This document shows positions 2,646-13,256 of a stretch of 13,256 nt of DNA, piece after piece. The stretch comes from Weeksellaceae bacterium (GTDB lineage: Bacteria > Bacteroidota > Bacteroidia > Flavobacteriales > Weeksellaceae): the NCBI GenBank assembly GCA_022701475.1, contig JAKOOI010000013.1, positions 1 to 13,256 of the forward strand, given 5' to 3'. A program made the position numbers and the translations under genes. Position 1 is the first letter of the stretch; each line of letters starts with the position of its first letter. Under the pieces are notes generated by a model. The model was not told where the DNA came from and made no database searches. It saw only the letters and a program-made list of their open reading frames with translations.

Positions 2646-3287
2646 ATGATGCAACACCAGTCCCCGTTTTTAGATACGCTGTTTCTGCTCCGGAAGGAAG
2701 AATGCATTACCCTTTTTGCAGGAATCGGGGAAATTTCCACTAAGGAAATTCAGGAGGCTGCTGTCTATTTCGAAGCTGAATTCGGGAAGGAAAAGCTGGA
2801 GTTTTTATCTGATACAATGCCATTTGATGCGGCAGCAGCAGTCTGGGCAGGCAAGGTGCTCTACCACAGTGCCCAGCTGTACCTGATCCGGAAAGATACC
2901 ATCAAAGACCTGCAAAAGTTTATTCCTGAATGGGACGGCAAAAAAGACGTTCCCGCAAAACTTTCCGCCGATCTGTCCTTGCGGTTTTTACCGCAGGTCT
3001 TCACTGCACTGAAGGAAGCCGATCCCGAAGATCCTCTGGTTTTCCTGCTGGAAGATATCCTGAAACAGTTTCACTATTCCGCCATCGGGCTGGATCTTGA
3101 CCTGATAAATATCAACTGGGAAGAAGAACTGGAAGATACAACCTACCGGAAGCTCTACCTGGAAAGGATCGTTGAGAAAAAAGCCTTCTCACTGGCGGAA
3201 GTTCCTTTCTTCAACAGGCTTCTGATGGCTGAATTCGGGATGTACAGAGACATTTTCTGGAGAGAGCTTGACATCACGGGACATTAA
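2646..3287 (+). CDS. Helical accessory protein, first gene of the MoxR-vWA-bpX operon
   Basis: A 213-residue acidic, soluble, mostly alpha-helical protein. It opens with two Met codons (2646 and 2649), and either could be the start. No catalytic motif, signal peptide or membrane segment is visible. Stretches such as AAAAVWAGKVLYHSAQLYLIRK (around residues 62-83) and a C-terminal segment rich in aromatic residues and Glu read like a scaffold or adaptor. Position and style fit one of the small bpX-type proteins that accompany MoxR-vWA-propeller systems; I cannot say from memory which numbered bpX family. It is followed by 77 bases without an evident terminator before the ATPase gene, so it most likely belongs to the same transcript. 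Function beyond system partner is unknown. Confidence 0.8.
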   Translation: MMQHQSPFLDTLFLLRKEECITLFAGIGEISTKEIQEAAVYFEAEFGKEKLEFLSDTMPFDAAAAVWAGKVLYHSAQLYLIRKDTIKDLQKFIPEWDGKKDVPAKLSADLSLRFLPQVFTALKEADPEDPLVFLLEDILKQFHYSAIGLDLDLININWEEELEDTTYRKLYLERIVEKKAFSLAEVPFFNRLLMAEFGMYRDIFWRELDITGH

Positions 3288-3364
3288 GTTTACCGGAATA
3301 AAAAATCCTGACTAACCCGGTTCTCAGAAAATCCACATTTTCACGTTTAGAATAAAATAAAACA

Positions 3365-4498
3365 ATGATTCAGAATATAGAAAAATTAAATAAAGCCCTC
3401 ACTTATGTAAAAGATACCTTTGTCGGCAAAAACGATGTAGTGGATCTCCTGGGAATCTGCCTGCTGGCAAGGGAAAACGCTTTCCTGTACGGACCTCCGG
3501 GAACGGCAAAATCGGCCATCGTAAGAACCCTGGCCCGGACTGTAAAAGACGGGAACAATTTTGAGTACCTCCTGACACGGTTTACGGAACCGAATGAGAT
3601 TTTCGGGCCTTTCGATATCAGGAAATTAAAGGAAGGGGAACTGCTGACCAATACCGAAGGCATGATGCCGGAAGCATCCATGGTGTTCCTTGATGAAATC
3701 TTCAATGCCAATTCGGCGATCCTGAATTCCCTGCTAATGGCCCTGAACGAGAAAATATTCAGAAGGGGAAAGGAAACAAAACATCTTCCTGCCCTGATGT
3801 TCGTGGGAGCAAGCAATGTCCTTCCCGAAGACGAAGCCCTGAATGCGCTGTTTGACCGTTTTCTCGTCCGGATCAACGTAGATTATGTACAGCCGGAACT
3901 CCTGCAGCAGGTACTGCTGGCCGGAAGGAAGCTGGAAAACAATACCACAGCGGAAGTTCCTGAAATCCTTTCCGGTGACATCCGTGACCTTCAGGATCTC
4001 TGTAAAACGGTTGACCTGAAACCCGTATATGAAGTGTATCTGAATACCATCCTGAGCCTCCGCAACACCGGAATCGCCATCTCCGACCGCCGGGCCGTGA
4101 AGATGCAGAACCTCATTGCAGCCAGTGCCCTTATCTGCGGCAGAAATGAAGCCGTCCTTTCCGATCTGTGGGTCCTGAAACACATCTGGGATACCGAAGA
4201 ACAGATTGAAATCCTGGAAGGGATCATCAACAGGACCATTGAAAAGGACAATCATCCGCAATCCCATCCGCAGGCGCTGCAGAACAAAGCCCCGAATCCG
4301 GAAGAGGTGATGAAAGACGTGAAGATCCTGACGGAGAAATGGAATGGCAATGATCTCAGCTTTGAAGAACGGAACGTCGTCAAAGACAAATTGAGATACC
4401 TCCAGACCCGCTGCGACTGGATCCGCAACCCTGAGCAAAAACAGTACATCCAACAGGAAATAGAAAGTCTATGGCAAAAGATCCTTCAGAGCATATAA
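3365..4498 (+). CDS. MoxR-family AAA+ ATPase (RavA-like)
   Basis: A 377-residue ATPase and the motor of the system. Walker A is GPPGTAKS at residues 43-50, Walker B is VFLDEIFNAN with D110/E111, sensor 1 is the Asn of GASN (N151), and the arginine-finger region is FDRFLVR (R165, R169). The TEPNEIFGPFDI segment between Walker A and B is the hallmark of the MoxR branch, closest in style to RavA, although the protein is shorter than RavA and lacks room for its LARA insertion. After the lid, residues from about 290 form a polar, charged helical tail. MoxR proteins form hexamers that work with vWA-domain partners, as the next genes provide. Its 3' end overlaps the following gene by 28 bases, implying coupled translation. 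Confidence 0.95.
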   Translation: MIQNIEKLNKALTYVKDTFVGKNDVVDLLGICLLARENAFLYGPPGTAKSAIVRTLARTVKDGNNFEYLLTRFTEPNEIFGPFDIRKLKEGELLTNTEGMMPEASMVFLDEIFNANSAILNSLLMALNEKIFRRGKETKHLPALMFVGASNVLPEDEALNALFDRFLVRINVDYVQPELLQQVLLAGRKLENNTTAEVPEILSGDIRDLQDLCKTVDLKPVYEVYLNTILSLRNTGIAISDRRAVKMQNLIAASALICGRNEAVLSDLWVLKHIWDTEEQIEILEGIINRTIEKDNHPQSHPQALQNKAPNPEEVMKDVKILTEKWNGNDLSFEERNVVKDKLRYLQTRCDWIRNPEQKQYIQQEIESLWQKILQSI

Positions 4499-5217
4499 AA
4501 GAATTCCGGGCAGCGCTTCCCCGTACCGACGAAGATTTTTTAGGTTCGATCCGCGACTGGAAAAACATTCAGCTGGCACAGGATGAAGAGGTGATCTGGC
4601 TGAAAGGATTCACCCCGGAACAAGCCGTTTCACAGGAAATCCGGCAGCTGCCGGGCCTGTTGCTCTATGAACTGCGGGAAGGCCTTTTGTTCAGAAAAGA
4701 TGCCCTGGTTCCCAGTAAGAAAATGAGGACCGCCCTGCTCTGGACGCCTATCGACAAGGCCCTGAAATTGACTTTTCCGGTGTCAAACAATAATTTTTTC
4801 GGGATTGATGGAAAAGTTGAGGTGAAACTGAAGCCGGTGGAAGAAGAACGGCCTGCTGCGGCACTTTTATGTTCAATGGCGGAAATCAGAGACATGATTG
4901 TAACATTACCGAAGTTCAGGCTTGAGAGGATCGTCTGGATCCTTATCGATGACAAAGCCTTATTTCTCGGTACGCCATTGTTGGGATTACCCGGAAAACC
5001 TTACTGGGCAGACAACGGCCACCTTCTGCCTGCAGGTTTTGATTTTGAATTCAGCAATCTGAGTACTTTACTGCAGCAGAAATACAATGCGGATCTGGAA
5101 CAATGGCTTCTATGGACTGAAGACGGACATATGCTCCGTCTTCCAAAAAGCAGCTTCCGGAAACTCTCCGTAAGCTCGTTCCGTCTCACCGAAAAATCAC
5201 AGGAATGGATCTCATAA
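4471..5217 (+). CDS. bpX-type accessory protein of the MoxR-vWA system
   Basis: A 248-residue soluble protein with no signal peptide or transmembrane segment. It starts inside the ATPase gene (28-base overlap) and ends inside the vWA/propeller gene (13-base overlap), so it is part of the core of the operon. After a charged N-terminal helix, residues 40-75 read EEVIWLKGFTPEQA then LPGLLLYELREGLLF, a mixed alpha/beta start. The middle, around residues 95-190, alternates short hydrophobic strands with turns: ALLWTPIDKALKLTFP, RIVWILIDDKALFLGTPLLGLPG, and HLLPAGFDFEF. This is the pattern of a beta-rich module. No catalytic residues stand out. I assign it to the bpX group by neighbourhood and style; which bpX number it is needs a profile search. 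Confidence 0.8.
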   Translation: MAKDPSEHIKEFRAALPRTDEDFLGSIRDWKNIQLAQDEEVIWLKGFTPEQAVSQEIRQLPGLLLYELREGLLFRKDALVPSKKMRTALLWTPIDKALKLTFPVSNNNFFGIDGKVEVKLKPVEEERPAAALLCSMAEIRDMIVTLPKFRLERIVWILIDDKALFLGTPLLGLPGKPYWADNGHLLPAGFDFEFSNLSTLLQQKYNADLEQWLLWTEDGHMLRLPKSSFRKLSVSSFRLTEKSQEWIS

Positions 5218-7589
5218 CCTATTTTCAGTCCCATGAAAATTATTTCTGGGAATGGACTACCGATGAAGATGTCCCGGATGATACCGGCTATCATGAAAAC
5301 AACCTTCTTGCCATCCCTAATGTAGGGGCGGTTGCCTACAGGCCTTATGTCATCGGAATCCTCAGGGAACTGAAGGAATCCGGATTTCCGCCTTTCGGCG
5401 CTTTGCTCCTTGTCTTATATGCGCTTCATGAAGGCTATCTGAATCTGGACGGCATTTCTTATCACCTGAACAGGCAAAAAAATAGTGTAGCGGAAACTCA
5501 TCAGGATATTGATTCGGCCATTGCGTTTCTGGAAAATATAAACGGTGTCGGAAATTCCCTCAAAAAGGGACGCAACAAAGGTATTCTTTTACAGACCCTT
5601 TTTAAAGAGAGCCACAACCGGATTTCCTCCGTAAGTTCTGGGCTGATTTTAAAGGTATTTGAAACAAAACCCCAGCTCATAGGCGAAGCGGCTGTTAAAA
5701 AGATGCTGACTGCAGCTGCAGTCAGCAGGGATATCAAGACATTAGCGCTTCTTCATTCTAAATTTCCAGACCCGAAATCCATTGTTGATGCCATGAAAGG
5801 TTTCACGGATCTCCCGGAGGTGGAAGAGGAGGTGGTGCAGGAAGAAGCTACTGTGGAAACAGGCCGGGAATTCGTCCGGCAGCTGACCGAAGAACCGGAG
5901 ACCTTTCACGTCGGAAGCCTGATCAAAAGGATCTGGAGCGGCCTGAAAATCCCGATGCGACATCTCGCAACCGGTGAACAGCCCATCGGCGGAATTTCAG
6001 ATATCACCAACAAAGGCGATTTCACCAGAATGCTGCTGTCTGAATTTGCCCATGAAGACGAGGTATTCATGAGCCGGGTGGCCAATAACGAAGCCCTCTA
6101 CATCCAGCGCGAAATTCCGCCTGAAGAAAATATTTTTGAACGGATCATCCTGATCGATACATCCCTGAAAAACTGGGGAACCCCGAAAGTATTGGCCTTC
6201 GCTTCCGCCATTGCCGTGATGAAGCACCCGAAAGCGCATTCCGGATGCAAAGTTTTCGTTATGGGCCAGGACAGCATTCCGGTCACACTGGACCGGATAG
6301 ATGAAGTGATAGAACACCTGAACCGGGTAAGCCCGGTGCTGGACGTTTCGCCGGCACTGGAAAAATTTTTTGCGGAAGAGCATACGGCAAAAAACCTGGA
6401 AGTATTTTTTATTACCCATCAGGAAAATCTGGATTATCCGCACCTTCAGAAGGTTATCCATGAAAACAGGGACCGGCTGAAATTCCTGGTTACCACTTCC
6501 GCAGAAGGCGAGCTGAATTTTTATAAGCATCATAAAGGAACCCGGAAACATATCCAGAAAATAATGCTCCCGCTGCAGGAACTATGGGCCCGCCCACCGA
6601 AGAAAGGCAGGGAAAGCCAAAGCGAGAAAAGCGGAATCAAAACCCTGGTTCCGGAAAATTACCCGCTGTTGTTCCCTACACCCAAAGACCGCCTGGCCAC
6701 GTTTCTGTACGAAGGCGACTTCTACCTGCTGAGCAATAAAAAACAACTGCTGAAAACCTACCTTTCCGATAATTATTATAACCGGAATATCTATGACAAT
6801 ATAAGCACCCAGAAAGGTTGTGAAGTGATAGCCGGTAAGGTTTCGGTAAAGCCCGGAGGCCAGTTTGCCTTAGCCAGGGACAAAGCCGGGCACTATATAC
6901 TGGCCCAGTACCGGCCGGATAAAAAGCTGCTCTCCAGACTGAACCTCGATACAAAGGAATACACCGAACTGAACCTGACCGGGCACAACATCCCGCAGGA
7001 TTTCTCTCTGGTTTATTTCAACAGGTATTTCTATCTCCACAGATCAGATTCCTTTACCGTTTTTAAAATCAATATTGAAGGCAGCCTGGTGGCGGAGAAA
7101 ACAGGAAACGATGCTGAAATCAGTAAAAGTGAAATTAAATACAAAGCGGAGCTTGACAAATTAAAAGGTAAAGGCGCAAAGATTTTAAACAATTTTACAG
7201 GTATAGGCATCAACAGGTATGAAGAGCTGGTGATTTCCAAATTCGCTCTGGAGTATATTACTGATCATGTCTATAATCTGGGCAAAAATTCAGGAGGGAC
7301 GGAAGTGGCGGCCCATCAATATAAAAATAAGTTCCGGTTCAGTGACGGCAGCGAGGTCATTACCGATGCCCGCGGAATGCTCACCTTTATCAGCAGCAAT
7401 AAGAATATCCCGGTGTTTTATATGCCTTCCACACATTACGGATACATGGCATTGGCTACGGAAAAGGAATTCGGGGGTTCCGAATATTATCTGCCCAAAC
7501 ATTCAAAACTGAAGATCAGAGAGATGGATGAAATGTATGGAGCGTATATGGAAGCTTTCATTAAACACGTGTTGGAATATGGAACTTAA
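5205..7589 (+). CDS. Helical domain + degenerate vWA + beta-propeller-like protein
   Basis: A 794-residue protein and the central partner of the ATPase. Residues 1 to about 240 are helical, with a Leu-rich segment near 60-80 and an acidic EVEEEVVQEEA linker near 205-215. Residues about 310-445 have the vWA fold pattern: strand FERIILIDTS, helix, strand CKVFVMG, helix, strand NLEVFFITHQEN, helix, strand LKFLVTTSAEG. The MIDAS metal site is incomplete: D318-T319-S320 is present but the third position of DxSxS is Lys, the middle Thr loop reads LDVSPAL (D380-S382), and the usual Asp of the fourth strand is His405. From about 480 to the end the sequence is a run of beta strands with Tyr/Phe-rich hairpins, as in a beta-propeller. 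This domain order is characteristic of MoxR-vWA-beta-propeller systems. No secretion signal, so probably cytoplasmic. Confidence 0.85.
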   Translation: MDLITYFQSHENYFWEWTTDEDVPDDTGYHENNLLAIPNVGAVAYRPYVIGILRELKESGFPPFGALLLVLYALHEGYLNLDGISYHLNRQKNSVAETHQDIDSAIAFLENINGVGNSLKKGRNKGILLQTLFKESHNRISSVSSGLILKVFETKPQLIGEAAVKKMLTAAAVSRDIKTLALLHSKFPDPKSIVDAMKGFTDLPEVEEEVVQEEATVETGREFVRQLTEEPETFHVGSLIKRIWSGLKIPMRHLATGEQPIGGISDITNKGDFTRMLLSEFAHEDEVFMSRVANNEALYIQREIPPEENIFERIILIDTSLKNWGTPKVLAFASAIAVMKHPKAHSGCKVFVMGQDSIPVTLDRIDEVIEHLNRVSPVLDVSPALEKFFAEEHTAKNLEVFFITHQENLDYPHLQKVIHENRDRLKFLVTTSAEGELNFYKHHKGTRKHIQKIMLPLQELWARPPKKGRESQSEKSGIKTLVPENYPLLFPTPKDRLATFLYEGDFYLLSNKKQLLKTYLSDNYYNRNIYDNISTQKGCEVIAGKVSVKPGGQFALARDKAGHYILAQYRPDKKLLSRLNLDTKEYTELNLTGHNIPQDFSLVYFNRYFYLHRSDSFTVFKINIEGSLVAEKTGNDAEISKSEIKYKAELDKLKGKGAKILNNFTGIGINRYEELVISKFALEYITDHVYNLGKNSGGTEVAAHQYKNKFRFSDGSEVITDARGMLTFISSNKNIPVFYMPSTHYGYMALATEKEFGGSEYYLPKHSKLKIREMDEMYGAYMEAFIKHVLEYGT

Positions 7590-9294
7590 TATCAAGCCTT
7601 TTCCAAAAAATGGGTATCCCCTGAAAGGACTTTTAATTAAAGGTCCTTCACCGTACGCATGGTTTCACGAAATGGAAGTGCTGGACATTGATATCAATGC
7701 AGTCCGGGCATTTCCCGTTCCTGGTACCGAGCCGAACATCCTGTACGGCTGTTTATTGGTTTTCACGGATACTGCTCCTGCTGAGATAGGAAAGAATATA
7801 CATTTCCAATGCGTGGATGACCGGCTTTTTATCCCTGAATACACAACCTTTTACCCGAAAGTCAATCCTGAAGAATGGGAATCGGCCAATGCTGTATTTC
7901 TGATCATGCACCCGGATTTCGGATTGGTGAAACTGAATGAAGAAGTCAGCTGGCTGTCAGCGATTCAGGATCCGCCGTCTTTTCAGGCCACAGCAAGGAA
8001 GCCTTCTGCCGGCGTTACAATTCCTGATACCATCAAAAGTTATACGGTGGACATGGATGATGAGAAAGTACTGGAAGACCTGCAGAACCCGAAGACCGAA
8101 GCGGAATGGATGAACAGCCTTCCTTTCGACCTGAAAAAAGTAATGGCCGGAAACAAAAAGGAAATTGAGAAATATTTACAATATATTGAAAAATATCCGG
8201 AGCGGGCTATTGATCTGGGGGTTCCGCTGGACATCACGGGAAGTTCAAGAGGCGACGGTTTCGGAAAATGGATGTTTGATATCCCTTTGGTCGGAAAACT
8301 GTTCGGCGGGAGTCCGGAAAATGAAGGACAGTCATCCTATACCGAAAAATACCGTTGGGTATTCTGGGCATTCCTTATTGTCCTGGGATTGGTCAGGCTC
8401 ATCTTCTATTTTAACAGGGAAGAGACTGCTCTTGTGGAAGAAGTATCTTCAGGCAGCATCTCAGAAAAGCCTGATAAAAAGATGATGGTGCCGGTAGTGG
8501 CCTACCAGTCCGGGGTTACGGATATCAACATGAAAATTGATTCTATTTACGGGAAAGAGCGGAACAGCCTGATGAAAGAGTATCTGGAGTCATCGGTAAG
8601 ATTCGGCAGCAAAAATGAAAAAAGCTATGAAGACTACCTGAAAGCGGGCGGACGGCCCATTGATGAGGTCCGGAATGATATTGCAAAGCTGAATGAGAAA
8701 ACGGGTACCGCCACCGATTCCCTGAAAAGGGTATACCGGAAAAAAATCGTGAAATACCTGGCGCAGAATGAAAACGTATTCAGGAAAAAAATTACCGACT
8801 CTCTCAGAAATACCGGTTCCGGAAAACCGGCTGATGAAGGTGTCGTAAGGAAAGCGCTGCAGAAAAAGCAGCTCCTGGTGGAAGATTCCCTGGGCCGGCT
8901 GTACGGAACCAAAGATTACCCGGAGCCGCCGGTTGCCCTTCCGGAAAAAAAACTGAAGACCGGAAACAGTGATCATGCATTGACCGGAACTGACCGTCCG
9001 GTTTCCTTTTCGGAAATTTTCTGGCTGATTATTGCCATGATCGGGATCATCGGCCTGTATTCGTTTATCGTAAAGCGCAAAAGCCTGAATGCTGGCGGTG
9101 AGCATGTGCCGGCCGGGACCAAAATTTTCCTGATTGCCGTTCTGATCGCCCTGATTGCCTATATTTTCTATCCGCTGATCGGCATGTTCGGCTACAACTG
9201 GTTCGTTTGGCTGCTCATCATCGGTGTGGTCCTGCTTCTGTACCGTCTCTTCAGCGAAGATAAAACCATTTTAAAATCAGACAAAGATGAATAA
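7579..9294 (+). CDS. Four-helix membrane protein of the MoxR-vWA-bpX operon
   Basis: The chosen start is the ATG at 7579, overlapping the previous gene by 11 bases; an upstream ATG at 7528 would add residues that read like a shadow of the propeller gene. The result is 571 residues. Residues 1-150 form a soluble mixed domain (IDINAVRAFPVPGTEPN, FIPEYTTFYPKVNPEEW, IMHPDFGLVKLNEEVSW). Next is a helical stretch, then membrane segments at about 260-278, 480-498, 516-535 and 541-555. Between the first and second segments lie some 200 charged, Lys/Glu-rich residues. With four segments, both ends would be on the same side, and the soluble domain is probably cytoplasmic where the ATPase acts. It likely anchors the system at the inner membrane. 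Gene family beyond bpX-system partner is not recognised. The stop overlaps the next gene by 8 bases. Confidence 0.8.
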   Translation: MELNIKPFPKNGYPLKGLLIKGPSPYAWFHEMEVLDIDINAVRAFPVPGTEPNILYGCLLVFTDTAPAEIGKNIHFQCVDDRLFIPEYTTFYPKVNPEEWESANAVFLIMHPDFGLVKLNEEVSWLSAIQDPPSFQATARKPSAGVTIPDTIKSYTVDMDDEKVLEDLQNPKTEAEWMNSLPFDLKKVMAGNKKEIEKYLQYIEKYPERAIDLGVPLDITGSSRGDGFGKWMFDIPLVGKLFGGSPENEGQSSYTEKYRWVFWAFLIVLGLVRLIFYFNREETALVEEVSSGSISEKPDKKMMVPVVAYQSGVTDINMKIDSIYGKERNSLMKEYLESSVRFGSKNEKSYEDYLKAGGRPIDEVRNDIAKLNEKTGTATDSLKRVYRKKIVKYLAQNENVFRKKITDSLRNTGSGKPADEGVVRKALQKKQLLVEDSLGRLYGTKDYPEPPVALPEKKLKTGNSDHALTGTDRPVSFSEIFWLIIAMIGIIGLYSFIVKRKSLNAGGEHVPAGTKIFLIAVLIALIAYIFYPLIGMFGYNWFVWLLIIGVVLLLYRLFSEDKTILKSDKDE

Positions 9295-10309
9295 CCAGAA
9301 GTTTATCAATAAATTCATCGCCGCCTTTTTTCTGCTGGTGGTCATCAAGATCATCGGGATCCTGGCCCAGCTTTTTCATAAAAGCTTCTGGAGCGTGGTC
9401 GGCACGCTGGTGCTGTTCATCATCATAGCCATCATCTTCTTCATTGTCCTGCTCAGGCTGGAAGATAAAGAAAAGGAAAAAAAATGGTCCGGCCGTAAAG
9501 GGAAACCGGGCGGCGGAAGTTCCTACGTGGAATCTTCGCTTTTCGACAGGATCCGGAACCGCTATGAGGAGCTCGCGCAGAAATATATGGACGAGAAAGA
9601 CTACCGGAAAGCAGCCAAAGTCTACATCAATCTCCTGCGCGACCATTACCGCGGAGCCCGTGTGCTGAAAGAAGGAGGTTTGTATAACGAGGCAGCCGTC
9701 ATTTACCTAAAGAAGCTCAGCAATAAATCCGAAGCCGCCTACTGCTATGAACAGGCCAGGCAGTACCGGAAAGCCATAGACCTGTATAAAGAGCTCGGAC
9801 AAAAGGAAAAGATCGGCGACCTGTACCGGCAGATGGATGATGTGAAGAATGCCAACACCTATTACCGGATGGTAGCGGACGATTATGTGGGAAATGGCCA
9901 GATGGTAAAAGGTTCCCTGATTTACCGTAAGAAAATGGAAATGCCCGGCGAAGCCCAGAAAATTTTACTGCAAGGCTGGGAAGATGGCCATGATGCTTTC
10001 AACTGCCTGAACAATTACTTTGCGAATATTTCAGGTACCGGAGCGCTCAGGCAGCAGATCATGGAGCTCTATGAAAAGACGCCTTCCGATAAAAAAGTCA
10101 TTTACCTTGAAGCCATGAAACACGAATTCCGGAAAGCTCCGGAACTGCAATCGGTTACCAGAAACATTGCCTATGAGATCATTGCCGAAAAAGTGGCCAC
10201 CCGCTCGGAAATTGTAAATGAACTGAAACATTTCAATCCGGAGGATGAGGGGATTCTGAAAGATATTTCCCGATATAAGATGGGAAGAAACAGGATGTTC
10301 AGGAATTAA
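9287..10309 (+). CDS. Membrane-anchored TPR-like helical-repeat protein
   Basis: A 340-residue protein starting within the previous gene. Two hydrophobic helices near residues 6-29 and 34-57 (FFLLVVIKIIGIL and LVLFIIIAIIFFIVLL) make an N-terminal hairpin anchor. A basic stretch (KEKEKKWSGRKGKPGG) follows, consistent with a cytoplasmic side. From about residue 85 the protein is built of short helix pairs with TPR-like spacing of aromatic, Ala and Tyr residues: YEELAQKYMDEKDYRKAAKVY, then EAAVIYLKKLSNKSEAAYCY, then YRKAIDLYKELGQKEKIGDLY. These repeats usually serve as protein-binding scaffolds. In this operon it could recruit the ATPase or a target to the membrane. No enzyme motif is visible. 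Confidence 0.85.
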   Translation: MNNQKFINKFIAAFFLLVVIKIIGILAQLFHKSFWSVVGTLVLFIIIAIIFFIVLLRLEDKEKEKKWSGRKGKPGGGSSYVESSLFDRIRNRYEELAQKYMDEKDYRKAAKVYINLLRDHYRGARVLKEGGLYNEAAVIYLKKLSNKSEAAYCYEQARQYRKAIDLYKELGQKEKIGDLYRQMDDVKNANTYYRMVADDYVGNGQMVKGSLIYRKKMEMPGEAQKILLQGWEDGHDAFNCLNNYFANISGTGALRQQIMELYEKTPSDKKVIYLEAMKHEFRKAPELQSVTRNIAYEIIAEKVATRSEIVNELKHFNPEDEGILKDISRYKMGRNRMFRN

Positions 10310-11514: not shown

Positions 11515-11585
11515 GGTCTATTGAGGTAACGGTAACCTTCCCGACTGTCTCTCGGGTACTGCGGGTTCAATTCCCGCATAGACCG
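11515..11585 (+). tRNA. tRNA-Asp (GTC)
   Basis: Perfect acceptor GGTCTAT/ATAGACC, D stem AGGT/ACCT, anticodon stem CCCGA/TCGGG with loop CTGTCTC (anticodon GTC), T stem GCGGG/CCCGC with loop TTCAATT. The variable loop has four bases. Discriminator base G fits Asp. No CCA is encoded. Confidence 0.93.
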
Positions 11586-11650
11586 CAAAGGTTCACGGAA
11601 CTATCAGCACCGGCTGTCTCCCGGAAATGATAAAAAAATGAACCTGAAAA

Positions 11651-11722
11651 CTGGAAAGATAACGGTGGTTGTTTACCCGCCTTGGACGCGGGAGGTCGCA
11701 GGTTCGAACCCTGCTTTCCAGA
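11651..11722 (+). tRNA. tRNA-Pro (TGG)
   Basis: Perfect acceptor CTGGAAA/TTTCCAG, anticodon stem CCCGC/GCGGG with loop CTTGGAC (anticodon TGG), T stem GCAGG/CCTGC with loop TTCGAAC. D stem is short (AAC/GTT). Discriminator A fits Pro. No CCA is encoded. Confidence 0.93.
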
Positions 11723-11727
11723 CAAAA

Positions 11728-11770
11728 GTGAATGGTGAATTTACGGGTAATAAAATTGAATATTGACCAT
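11728..11770. repeat. Inverted-repeat spacer after tRNA-Pro
   Basis: GTGAATGGTGAATTT starts at 11728 and is followed by AAATTGAATATTGACCAT ending at 11770. ATGGT pairs with ACCAT, and AATTT pairs with AAATT, giving an imperfect hairpin. The left arm is the same GTGAATGG unit as at 11434 and 11459. Confidence 0.5.
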
Positions 11771-11827
11771 GAAGGAATTGAAAATAGAAACGAATTGACC
11801 ATTAAAAATAATTGTTTCAAAGAGAGA

Positions 11828-11897
11828 AAGAAAAGCCTGCCGAGCGCAGACGATCTTTAAGCCAAAAAAACACAGAATATACAGGCGGCTTTTTCTT
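11828..11897. repeat. GCGCAGA hairpin element, copy 1
   Basis: Outer arms AAGAAAAGCC (11828-11837) and GGCTTTTTCTT (11887-11897). The loop begins with the shared motif, here GCGCAGACGATCTTTAA from 11844, followed by an A-rich run. The most diverged arms of the four copies. Confidence 0.65.
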
Positions 11898-11954
11898 AAC
11901 CTCGGAAACTAAAAAATAAAATAAAGGAAACATAATATAATTTTTAGTGAAAAT

Positions 11955-12015
11955 AAAGTCTGTCCAGGCGCAGAAGTTCTTACATCAAAAAAAATAAGAC
12001 AGACTTTGTTTTTTT
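11955..12015. repeat. GCGCAGA hairpin element, copy 2
   Basis: Perfect 10-bp arms AAAGTCTGTC (11955-11964) and GACAGACTTT (11998-12007), then a T-run to 12015. The 33-base loop carries GCGCAGAAGTTCTTA at 11968-11982 and an A-rich stretch. The stem plus T-run could terminate transcription, but the loop is far longer than in ordinary terminators. Confidence 0.75.
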
Positions 12016-12084
12016 ATGAAGATCAATATCAATCATCATTGATCATTCATCAATTATGAAAAATTATAAGGCAGGTAAAGATTA

Positions 12085-12110
12085 CTCATTACCCATTGCT
12101 CATTACTCAT
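12085..12110. repeat. TTACTCAT / TTACCCAT simple repeats
   Basis: A run of near-identical 8-10 base units (ATTACTCAT, TTACCCATT, GCTCATTACTCAT) directly before tRNA-Cys. The same family precedes tRNA-Tyr at about 12342-12369 and occurs, also in inverted form, around tRNA-Phe. Confidence 0.6.
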
Positions 12111-12116
12111 CAAAAT

Positions 12117-12198
12117 GATGGTTCGCCGAAGCGGGAGAGTCGGGGCGGTCTGCAAAACCGTTGCGTAAGCTGAGTGGGTTCGAATCCCATCACCATCT
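12117..12198 (+). tRNA. tRNA-Cys (GCA) with a long, class II variable arm
   Basis: Acceptor GATGGTT/CACCATC (six pairs, mismatch at the last), D stem CCGA/TCGG, anticodon stem GCGGT/ACCGT with loop CTGCAAA (anticodon GCA), T stem GTGGG/CCCAT. Discriminator T is the known Cys identity base. The variable region is 12 bases (TGCGTAAGCTGA) and can fold GC-GTAA-GC, although bacterial tRNA-Cys is normally class I with a short loop. Bases 12124-12164 match tRNA-Tyr bases 12383-12423 at 38 of 41 positions, so it appears to be a Tyr gene converted to a Cys anticodon. No CCA is encoded. Confidence 0.85.
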
Positions 12199-12224
12199 CA
12201 AATAACTAAAATGAGATTAGTTCC

Positions 12225-12300
12225 GGAGAAAAAGAAAAAGCCTGTCAGGCGCAGAAGTTCTTATATCAAACAAAAAATAAGACAGGCTTTCATTTTCTCC
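12225..12300. repeat. GCGCAGA hairpin element, copy 3
   Basis: The best-formed copy. GGAGAAAA (12225-12232) pairs with TTTTCTCC (12293-12300), and AAAGCCTGTC (12237-12246) pairs with GACAGGCTTT (12281-12290), with a short internal loop between. The 34-base loop contains GCGCAGAAGTTCTTA at 12249-12263 and an A-rich run ending AATAA. Confidence 0.8.
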
Positions 12301-12375
12301 ACAAAATTAAAACTAAGAACAGGAAATATCGTATGAAATATTACTCATTACCTATTGCTTATTACTCATAAAAAA

Positions 12376-12461
12376 GGAAGCACGCCGAAGCCGGAGAGTC
12401 GGGGCGGTCTGTAACACCGTTGCTTTTTGCTGAGCAGGTTCAAGTCCTGCTGCTTCCACCA
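12376..12461 (+). tRNA. tRNA-Tyr (GTA), CCA encoded
   Basis: Perfect acceptor GGAAGCA/TGCTTCC, D stem CCGA/TCGG, anticodon stem GCGGT/ACCGT with loop CTGTAAC (anticodon GTA), T stem GCAGG/CCTGC. The 13-base variable arm is normal for bacterial tRNA-Tyr. Discriminator A at 12458 and CCA at 12459-12461. Confidence 0.95.
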
Positions 12462-12462
12462 A

Positions 12463-12533
12463 CCGCTGATAATGTAACGGCAGCATGCAGGAATTGTACT
12501 CTTGTTGTCCGGGTTCGATTCCCGGTCAGATGG
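12463..12533 (+). tRNA. tRNA-Thr-like gene (TGT) with a defective acceptor stem
   Basis: Follows tRNA-Tyr by one base. D stem ATGT/GCAT, anticodon stem CAGGA/TCTTG with loop ATTGTAC (anticodon TGT, Thr) and T stem CCGGG/CCCGG with loop TTCGATT are all sound. The acceptor CCGCTGA/TCAGATG pairs only five of seven; an alternative pairing ACC/GGT outside CTGA/TCAG leaves an internal loop. It may be decaying, edited, or a non-standard tRNA. Isotype is read from the anticodon only. Confidence 0.6.
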
Positions 12534-12543
12534 TCTAAGGATA

Positions 12544-12616
12544 AGTGAATAGTCAATGGTGAATTTCCCTTCGCGAGTGAATTTGTTGATAAGTCAGCAG
12601 ATCGGAGTTCACCATC
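12544..12616. repeat. Inverted-repeat spacer before tRNA-Glu
   Basis: AGTGAATAGTCAATGGTGAATT at the left and AGTTCACCATCAAAT at the right are inverse-related (GGTGAA with TTCACC), with another AGTGAATTTG in the middle. Same GTGAATGG family as the spacers near tRNA-Asp and tRNA-Pro. Confidence 0.5.
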
Positions 12617-12620
12617 AAAT

Positions 12621-12692
12621 GCTCTATTCGTCTAACGGTCAGGACGCCTGCCTTTCGAGCAGGAAACAAGGGTTCGATTCCCTTATAGAGTA
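12621..12692 (+). tRNA. tRNA-Glu (TTC)
   Basis: Acceptor GCTCTAT/ATAGAGT (one terminal G.T pair), D stem GTCT/GGAC, anticodon stem CCTGC/GCAGG with loop CTTTCGA (anticodon TTC), T stem AAGGG/CCCTT. Discriminator A. No CCA is encoded. Confidence 0.92.
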
Positions 12693-12778
12693 CAAAGGAC
12701 AAATGATGAAAAAAGTGAATCTTGCCTTGCCATTAAATTGATGAGCAAAGGGAATGAATAATTCACAAAAACAATAGA

Positions 12779-12848
12779 GAGAAGGCTTTGTCAAGCGCAG
12801 AAGATCTTACAAAACATAACAGGTAACGTTTTAATAGACAGTCTTCTC
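12779..12848. repeat. GCGCAGA hairpin element, copy 4
   Basis: Arms GAGAAG (12779-12784) and CTTCTC (12843-12848), with TGTC (12789-12792) and GACA (12837-12840) inside. The loop starts GCGCAGAAGATCTTA at 12795-12809 and is about ten bases longer than in copies 2 and 3. Confidence 0.65.
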
Positions 12849-12917
12849 CTATATTTTGCAGATAAGCTGATGAATGCTGATTGATCGCAGCTTGTCTTTT
12901 TCAATAATTATACATCT

Positions 12918-12991
12918 GCGGGAATGGTGGAATTGGCAGACACACCTGATTTAGGCTCAGGTTTTTGGGGGTTCGAGTCCCTCTTCCCGTA
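12918..12991 (+). tRNA. tRNA-Leu (TAG) lacking the long variable arm
   Basis: Acceptor GCGGGAA/TTCCCGT (terminal G.T), Leu-type D arm (GTGGAATTGGCAGACAC), anticodon stem CCTGA/TCAGG with loop TTTAGGC (anticodon TAG), T stem GGGGG/CCCTC with loop TTCGAGT. Discriminator A fits Leu. The variable region is only TTTTT, whereas bacterial tRNA-Leu is class II with an extra arm. The D and T arms are otherwise those of an ordinary Leu tRNA, so the arm appears to have been deleted. No CCA is encoded. Confidence 0.87.
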
Positions 12992-12996
12992 CAAAC

Positions 12997-13050
12997 ATAA
13001 GTAATGAGTAATCCGGGGCAGCAAAATAGTATTAACCCATTACCCATAAA
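12997..13050. repeat. Inverted-repeat spacer between tRNA-Leu and tRNA-Phe
   Basis: Left arm AAGTAATGAGTAAT and right arm TTAACCCATTACCCAT are inverse members of the TTACTCAT family, with a mixed centre. Imperfect but clear. Confidence 0.5.
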
Positions 13051-13056
13051 AAAGCC

Positions 13057-13132
13057 GGAAGAGTGGTGTAGCAGGTCTGCACGTTAGTCTGAAAAACTAA
13101 AGGTACAGGTTCGATTCCTGTCTGTTCCGCCA
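13057..13132 (+). tRNA. tRNA-Phe (GAA), CCA encoded
   Basis: Acceptor GGAAGAG/CTGTTCC pairs six of seven (G.G mismatch at position 5), D stem GTGT/GCAC, anticodon stem TTAGT/ACTAA with loop CTGAAAA (anticodon GAA), T stem ACAGG/CCTGT. Discriminator G at 13129 is unusual for Phe (normally A). CCA at 13130-13132. Confidence 0.87.
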
Positions 13133-13211: not shown

Positions 13212-13256
13212 TGATTCATAGTGTAATTGGTCAGCACACAAGACTTTGACTCTTGT
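13212..13256 (+). tRNA. tRNA-Gln (TTG), 5' part, cut by the window end
   Basis: Acceptor 5' strand TGATTCA, D stem GTGT/GCAC, anticodon stem CAAGA/TCTTG with loop CTTTGAC (anticodon TTG). The T arm and 3' end lie beyond the window, so the acceptor stem cannot be checked. It shows the array continues to the right. Confidence 0.85.

Follow-up and report, generated by a model that had tools for sequence, protein, structure and literature searches.

The question raised by this locus is how a gene with the identity letters of tRNA-Cys came to have the long variable arm of another structural class of tRNA, and what such a gene does in the cell. The stretch of DNA analyzed (the window) comprises 13,256 nt and is contig C112 of a 3.09 Mb MAG that is 73% complete; the nearest loci found were from Chryseobacterium. 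An earlier note on this sequence had described a tRNA-Cys with a GCA anticodon, a long arm and a T discriminator, and this proved correct: ARAGORN called a tRNA-Cys(GCA) at 12117–12199, the variable region is 12 nt long (TGCGTAAGCTGA, 12162–12173) with a 2-bp stem, and a T stands at 12198. The gene and its parts are as follows.

12117–12199, + strand: class II tRNA-Cys(GCA) (ARAGORN; pair counts over 23 distinct relatives; R1 model)
12117–12123 with 12191–12197, + strand: acceptor stem
12126–12129 with 12140–12143, + strand: D stem
12145–12149 with 12157–12161, + strand: anticodon stem; anticodon at 12152–12154
12163–12164 with 12169–12170, + strand: variable stem
12174–12178 with 12186–12190, + strand: T stem; T73 at 12198

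When the 7/5 cloverleaf was laid over 23 distinct relatives, 99.4% of the pair cells were standard, compared with 28–58% when the partners were slid. One of the two variable-stem pairs was C-G in 15 of these sequences, U-A in 8 and unpaired in none. With a variable region of at least 10 nt and a kept stem in place of the short class I loop, the gene was classified as class II; it has the GCA and U73 of a bacterial elongator tRNA-Cys, and its acceptor and T stems do not have the 8/4 arrangement of selC* tRNA-Cys. T73 was present in all 55 array Cys genes detected by ARAGORN (from 53 of the 67 array loci), and 64 of 83 columns were invariant among 24 sequences chosen for being different. Paired cells, both-side-changed cells and the covariation score exceeded those of all 500 shuffles, a result that related sequences can also give, while the single pair with changes on both sides did not rise above the shuffle level (494 of 500 shuffles reached that count). 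In the window copy the last acceptor-stem pair (12123/12191) is mismatched, T7.C66; the 7–66 pair is missing in three of the 23 distinct sequences, this copy included. At T-loop positions 54–56, TTT replaced TTC in 49 of the 55 ARAGORN-detected genes, and nearly all other array tRNAs have TTC; TTT is also found in the host core tRNA-Arg(ACG), and the window Cys copy has TTC. Class II Cys genes also occur in tandem, with three copies at locus L100 (14137–14719), where no array Tyr gene was detected, and four in another genome (G514, contig C32, 151282–152106).

Model R1 gave the window gene a score of E = 1.4e-30; at E ≤ 1e-22 it detected the array Cys gene in 162 of 173 genomes of the genus. 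This is a raw count, as the cut-off overlooks some Cys genes bearing an insertion (described below): two of the eleven R1-negative genomes (G511 and G574) do have the gene, with an insertion. In a family sample of 148, strong matches were confined to this genus and one other, g147 (G304, G331, G347, G369 and G417); weaker matches, with E of about 1e-18 to 1e-21, came from G308, G348 and G386, and those in G308 and G348 are tRNA-Tyr. The window's genome also encodes an ordinary class I tRNA-Cys of 72 nt. Since the class I gene is kept in 172 of the 173 genomes, the class II tRNA-Cys is an additional gene. The long-armed tRNA-Cys is thus a real, well-conserved extra gene and no oddity of a single MAG, and the natural pair of class I and class II tRNA-Cys in one cell lets the tolerance of CysRS for a long arm be probed.

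The gene does not stand alone. In the window, eight complete tRNAs lie on the + strand within 1.6 kb (11515–13132, ARAGORN), followed by a partial ninth at the contig end; besides tRNA-Cys, the array contains the following.

11515–11586, + strand: tRNA-Asp(GTC) (ARAGORN)
11651–11723, + strand: tRNA-Pro(TGG) (ARAGORN)
12376–12461, + strand: class II tRNA-Tyr(GTA) whose anticodon stem is Cys-like (ARAGORN; comparison with other Tyr genes)
12463–12533, + strand: tRNA-Thr(TGT) (ARAGORN)
12621–12693, + strand: tRNA-Glu(TTC) (ARAGORN)
12918–12992, + strand: 75-nt tRNA-Leu(TAG) whose variable loop is short (ARAGORN)
13057–13132, + strand: tRNA-Phe(GAA) (ARAGORN)
13212–13256, + strand: 5' part of tRNA-Gln, cut by the contig end (by-eye comparison with array Gln genes)
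11844–11857 (+ strand), 11968–11981, 12249–12262 and 12795–12808: spacer-hairpin motif GCGCAGAMGWTCTT (pattern search)

At least three array tRNAs were found at 67 of 80 bpMoxR loci, 804 tRNAs in all, with a mean of 12 and a range of 4–17. Over the 67 loci they cover 17 amino acids. None of the 811 ARAGORN calls in arrays was for Ala, Gly or Val, compared with 7 of 62 core tRNAs in the fetched parts of one complete genome. These dense, divergent, extra tRNAs for most amino acids form a tRNA array unit. The Cys gene is not the only one with an arm of the wrong length: tRNA-Leu is normally class II, and the array tRNA-Leu is short-armed, at 74–76 nt. The discriminators are those of the host for most isoacceptors, with Phe and Thr mixed and minor exceptions elsewhere. 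When compared with one host genome, without a matched control, the commonest anticodon-flanking bases differed in 15 of 20 isoacceptors with the anticodon unchanged, and agreed in Lys, Asn, Trp, Met and Arg(CCT). Nine of ten copies of the spacer motif in three genomes fell inside tRNA arrays, and a control pattern gave none; these hairpins may be a distinct small RNA belonging to the array. A T at base 33 is near-universal in tRNAs; in the ARAGORN frame, 20 array Thr(TGT) genes in loci L033–L112 have A or C at this position, and the window copy has T.

Upstream of the array, the window contains the genes of a bpX system:

2646–10309, + strand: MoxR–vWA–beta-propeller (bpX) ternary system (Pfam)
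2646–3287, + strand: bpX4 (Pfam)
3365–4498, + strand: bpMoxR (Pfam)
4471–5217, + strand: bpX2 (Pfam)
5205–7589, + strand: bpX0/bpX1 (Pfam)
7528–9294, + strand: bpX3 (Pfam)
9287–10309, + strand: gene with SNAP/TPR matches (Pfam)

The array Cys gene and bpMoxR occurred together in 155 of the 173 genomes, the Cys gene alone in 7, bpMoxR alone in 5 and neither in 6 (Fisher p = 1.9e-5, which ignores kinship among the genomes and is descriptive only). Outside the family, no such array was detected in the 18–20 kb around 16 of 27 bpMoxR matches; one had three ordinary-looking tRNAs. The bpX system, a first suspect because its genes precede the array in this genus, was accordingly rejected as the partner of the array, as the array occurs without bpX and bpMoxR occurs outside the family without the array. 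It is a frequent neighbor in the genus, not an obligatory partner. In the excerpted source, bpX systems are described as having no conventional effector (PMC7159879), and the array does not explain this missing component.

A more constant neighbor is an RNase H-like gene (PF04308), which follows the last array tRNA in relatives. It adjoins the arrays in four genomes with no bpMoxR match (L224, L234, L235 and L236) and in three stretches in which no bpMoxR is seen (L225, L226 and L227, the last two recognized by eye from shared protein sequence). Among 68 full-length loci, with the gene recognized by a protein motif, 55 had both array and RNase H-like gene and 7 had neither; in the other 6 the array lay less than 300 bases from the locus end, with no RNase H-like gene in view. 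PF04308 was found in 161 of the 162 R1-positive genomes, the exception being the present incomplete MAG, and in 5 of the 11 R1-negative ones (Fisher p = 9e-8, again descriptive only, as kinship is ignored). Neither PF04308 nor TROVE was found in the window's 73% complete MAG, where the contig stops inside the array. In relatives, Pfam matches near the array include an Rnl2 ligase, an RNase T-type exonuclease, a phosphoesterase, cREC_REC and Band 7 (L224), TROVE/Ro60 (L225), and RtcB, two RlaP and Band 7 (L226), all of them genes of the kinds that make up RNA-repair islands; a like series of genes follows the array in Chryseobacterium indologenes (L228; open reading frames compared by eye). TROVE was found in 119 of the 173 genomes. 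Burroughs and Aravind reportedly described RNA-repair systems with Rnl2/RtcB, RlaP, TROVE and SPFH/Band 7 in 2016, the same protein families as are seen near the arrays. A type of array so far mostly discussed as an anti-defense device of phages and plasmids is thereby tied to bacterial RNA-repair genes.

Some array genes of some relatives carry an insertion of 48–54 nt in the T-loop after position 58, mostly starting with AATGY-NNN-RCATTCGTGAA and ending with TGAACA. A scan of the fetched loci yielded 41 distinct insertions in 32 loci, at least one of them (L246) outside an array. By best array match they belong to Cys (13), Asp (9), Gln (5), Met (4), Pro (3), Tyr (2), and Leu, Arg and Phe (1 each), with 2 unassigned; nine kinds of array tRNA thus carry the insertion at a single T-loop site (for example in L199, L040, L056, L231, L242 and L249). 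The exact insertion pattern was found in 33 of the 173 genomes, its reversed control in none, and the window's MAG gave no match to the exact pattern. At least two copies (G474 and G574) are located outside the array, downstream of TROVE. In L274 (near 4060, minus strand) and L275 (near 11974, plus strand), the insertion-bearing, T-arm-like piece downstream of TROVE had no ARAGORN tRNA call.

The insertion acts as RNA, because two pairs of its leading hairpin change on both sides among 23 aligned cases; in the outer part, the pairing given by RNAalifold differs from a wider, hand-drawn structure. The insertions of three loci had no Rfam match at E ≤ 0.5, and two YrlA matches in those loci coincided with tRNAs of the array and scored far under the gathering threshold. 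Two insertion-bearing Cys copies differ elsewhere, one (L068) having the anticodon ACA and another (G511, L232) having lost a T-stem base. If retained in the RNA, the insertion would bar normal elongator use, and decoding should be lost unless it is removed; if it is removed, these genes would represent a new kind of bacterial tRNA-gene disruption.

Where did the long-armed tRNA-Cys come from? The earlier note had found 12124–12164 and 12383–12423 alike at 38 of 41 bases, which is exact, and had proposed that a tRNA-Tyr was converted to tRNA-Cys. Among the 42 loci with both genes, a 38/41 match in this segment occurs in the present MAG only. The other 41 pairs match at 23–35 positions: 38 of them give 30–35, and the three lowest (23–25) are shifted by one-base length differences. 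Because the Cys-like anticodon stem of the array Tyr gene is confined to the window and L034 among 42 Tyr genes, the stretch was probably copied recently from Cys into Tyr, opposite to the direction first proposed for this segment. Judged from these pairs, the 38/41 match arose late and locally.

The closest of the compared sequences, orthologues aside, was a phage gene. The window Cys gene is 83.1% identical to the tRNA-Tyr of Microbacterium phage Cece (83 aligned columns), 71.1% to the neighboring Tyr, 61.1% to the host core Cys and 52.4% to the host core Tyr. In a tRNA tree built on 84 columns, in which 12 of 40 inner branches were well supported and many forks stayed open, the Cys genes formed one clade (100/99), sister to the phage tRNA-Tyr (99/96) and amid array and phage Tyr genes. 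The window Tyr clustered with array Tyr genes from other loci; two core Leu genes fell, without resolution, in the region that contains the Cys clade. Grouping Cys with the Chryseobacterium array Tyr genes (p-AU 0.044), or with the window and L034 Tyr genes (0.048), was only just rejected, the constrained groups having been chosen after the tree was seen; grouping it with the host class I Cys was not rejected (p 0.40, long branches). Three phage records matched the window Cys gene, all annotated as tRNA-Tyr, and two plasmid records matched, of which the one examined is a tRNA-Tyr by ARAGORN; an exact pattern search of viral_contigs gave no match to the Cys gene. A Paenibacillus polymyxa plasmid, pSC2 (L269), was seen to carry a big tRNA array, with 44 ARAGORN calls in 7.1 kb and a gene table without RNA genes; the D and anticodon arms of its Tyr gene agree with the corresponding arms of the array Tyr in Chryseobacterium.

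The comparison supports the view that a class II tRNA-Tyr, belonging to a type that phages carry as well, gained the Cys anticodon and discriminator, and direct descent of the array Cys from the adjacent Tyr appears unlikely. Of the proposed conversion, the Tyr-type class II source is supported and the adjacent Tyr as source is not, judging by the tree; that the resulting gene is maintained is supported as well. A tRNA thus seems to have changed its amino-acid identity and yet kept the wrong structural class, across a genus. The likeness to phage Cece (gene 110, a class II tRNA-Tyr) extends to the same T arm and similar D and variable arms; the phage gene differs in its GTA anticodon and A73, and in being phage-borne, not chromosomal near RNA-repair genes. 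The Cece array also has class-swapped members (a 75-nt Leu, a 73-nt Tyr and an 86-nt His), and phage Francesca has a Leu(TAG) of 76 nt, like the short-armed array Leu.

An argument that the array as a whole is phage-like, based on phage tRNA matches, was dropped. The array Tyr, Leu and Pro genes matched 80, 53 and 158 phage records, respectively, but the host core Tyr, Leu and Pro genes matched 73, 350 and 622, the best of these spanning the whole tRNA length, so the array matches prove little. The host core Cys matched three phage records, two of them annotated as tRNA-Trp. What is left of the phage argument is the place of the Cys gene beside the phage tRNA-Tyr.

Dense second sets of divergent tRNAs for most amino acids are known, as array units, from mycobacteria and their phages and plasmids (PMC5966550, PMC12803027, both in part). 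The Chryseobacterium array differs in being chromosomal and genus-wide, in having no Ala, Gly or Val, and in adjoining the RNase H-like and RNA-repair genes. Long-armed tRNA-Cys has a precedent in the selC* tRNA-Cys of Mukai et al. (2017), described as a minor bacterial tRNA whose variable arm is long and which has U73 and the anticodon GCA, or in some cases UCA (PMC7609411); that tRNA is 8/4, tRNA-Sec-like and from anaerobes, whereas the array Cys is 7/5 and Tyr-like. Three things had been missing from the earlier account: this precedent, the genome's own class I tRNA-Cys, and the array with its RNA-repair context. A search over part of the literature found, among the titles and abstracts of the matches listed, none on this array, on a 17-amino-acid array with RNA-repair genes, or on such a class II tRNA-Cys.

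What, then, might the array do? The best explanation, held tentatively and falling a little short of an even chance, is that it comprises standby tRNAs that resist tRNA-cutting nucleases and work together with the repair genes, the class II tRNA-Cys being a Tyr-derived Cys member charged by CysRS. Nucleases that cut tRNAs, whether the cell's own abortive defenses or the weapons of rivals, would deplete the ordinary tRNAs; the array would then supply altered tRNAs that can still be charged and escape cleavage, while the neighboring ligases, exonucleases and Ro/TROVE protein would repair or clear the fragments. The class II tRNA-Cys is the Cys member of this set of about a dozen (4–17 detected) extra chromosomal tRNAs in Chryseobacterium and near kin, probably made from a class II tRNA-Tyr by changing GTA to GCA and A73 to T73. 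Because GCA and T73 are kept in every ARAGORN-detected copy, it is most likely charged by CysRS through these letters despite the long arm. Phage tRNAs with altered anticodon surroundings escape anticodon nucleases (PMC10264068, in part), and jumbo phages combine tRNAs with RNA repair (PMC7824862, in part). Standby tRNAs and repair are suggested by analogy, because this phage pairing of tRNAs and repair recurs in a bacterial chromosome, and the array set may accordingly back up or replace tRNAs cut in conflict with viruses or rivals. The array tRNAs are a defined group of candidate substrates for the RNA-repair enzymes.

The main rival to standby tRNAs, possible and somewhat doubtful, is that the array RNAs do not decode and instead serve the repair machinery as bait, sensor or cofactor, for instance as tRNA-like companions of TROVE/Ro or Band 7 proteins; their tRNA shape would then be retained to let nucleases or repair enzymes bind. 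A platform of ROT/TROVE with a tRNA-like partner has been described in cellular organisms (PMC7824862, in part), which favors this role, as do the array's place beside the RNase H-like gene and near TROVE, Band 7 and ligase genes in relatives, and the insertion-bearing, tRNA-like piece downstream of TROVE in two genomes. The T-loop insertions and the TTT of most Cys genes are likewise unlike ordinary elongators; on the other hand, most array genes have a TTC T-loop, and discriminators and anticodons match the amino-acid identity in most isoacceptors, which baits would not need. TROVE, moreover, is found in fewer genomes than the array Cys (119 versus 162 of 173). Another possibility is that the gene is what is left of a tRNA array acquired long ago from a phage or plasmid and now drifts. 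The likeness between the Cys gene and a phage tRNA-Tyr, the varying array content and such signs of decay as T7.C66 and the T-stem base lost from an insertion-bearing copy fit this; genus-wide retention of the Cys gene, its many invariant columns, its kept pairs and its constant T73 make it improbable. The core tRNAs for Tyr, Leu and Pro match phages as well, which also speaks against a remnant; as phage matches therefore do not mark the whole array as phage-derived, the standby explanation was rated slightly lower too.

It seems very improbable that the array Cys is mischarged with Tyr, producing missense changes from Cys to Tyr, or that both synthetases charge it. Bacterial TyrRS uses the long arm, and the class II body is of the Tyr type; yet A73 and the GTA anticodon are the usual TyrRS determinants, and both have been replaced by Cys letters in all 55 ARAGORN-detected genes. 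Returning to standby tRNAs, a bolder version, on balance unlikely, is that Chryseobacterium has a permanent chromosomal standby set wired to RNA-repair genes, in which the class rules are broken (long-armed Cys, short-armed Leu) and the T-loop element of about 50 nt is either an RNA intron that the neighboring repair enzymes excise or a switch that converts a tRNA into a repair-bound RNA.

Two further groups of tRNA-like genes were observed. In another genome (G000, contig C201, L177), three weak tRNA-model matches, one of them above the cut-off, lie at about 1806–2013 on the minus strand with no ARAGORN call, upstream of a gene that by eye resembles the Band 7 gene of L224. At 23 of the 80 loci, a second cluster of short tRNA-like genes lies upstream of bpX (for example L038, 6542–6771, and L111, 3915–4227), with a TatD-like gene within about 5 kb. 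Its anticodons are odd and variable; the 94 ARAGORN calls, 51 of them with GTTTAA, include Gly, Ala and Val labels.
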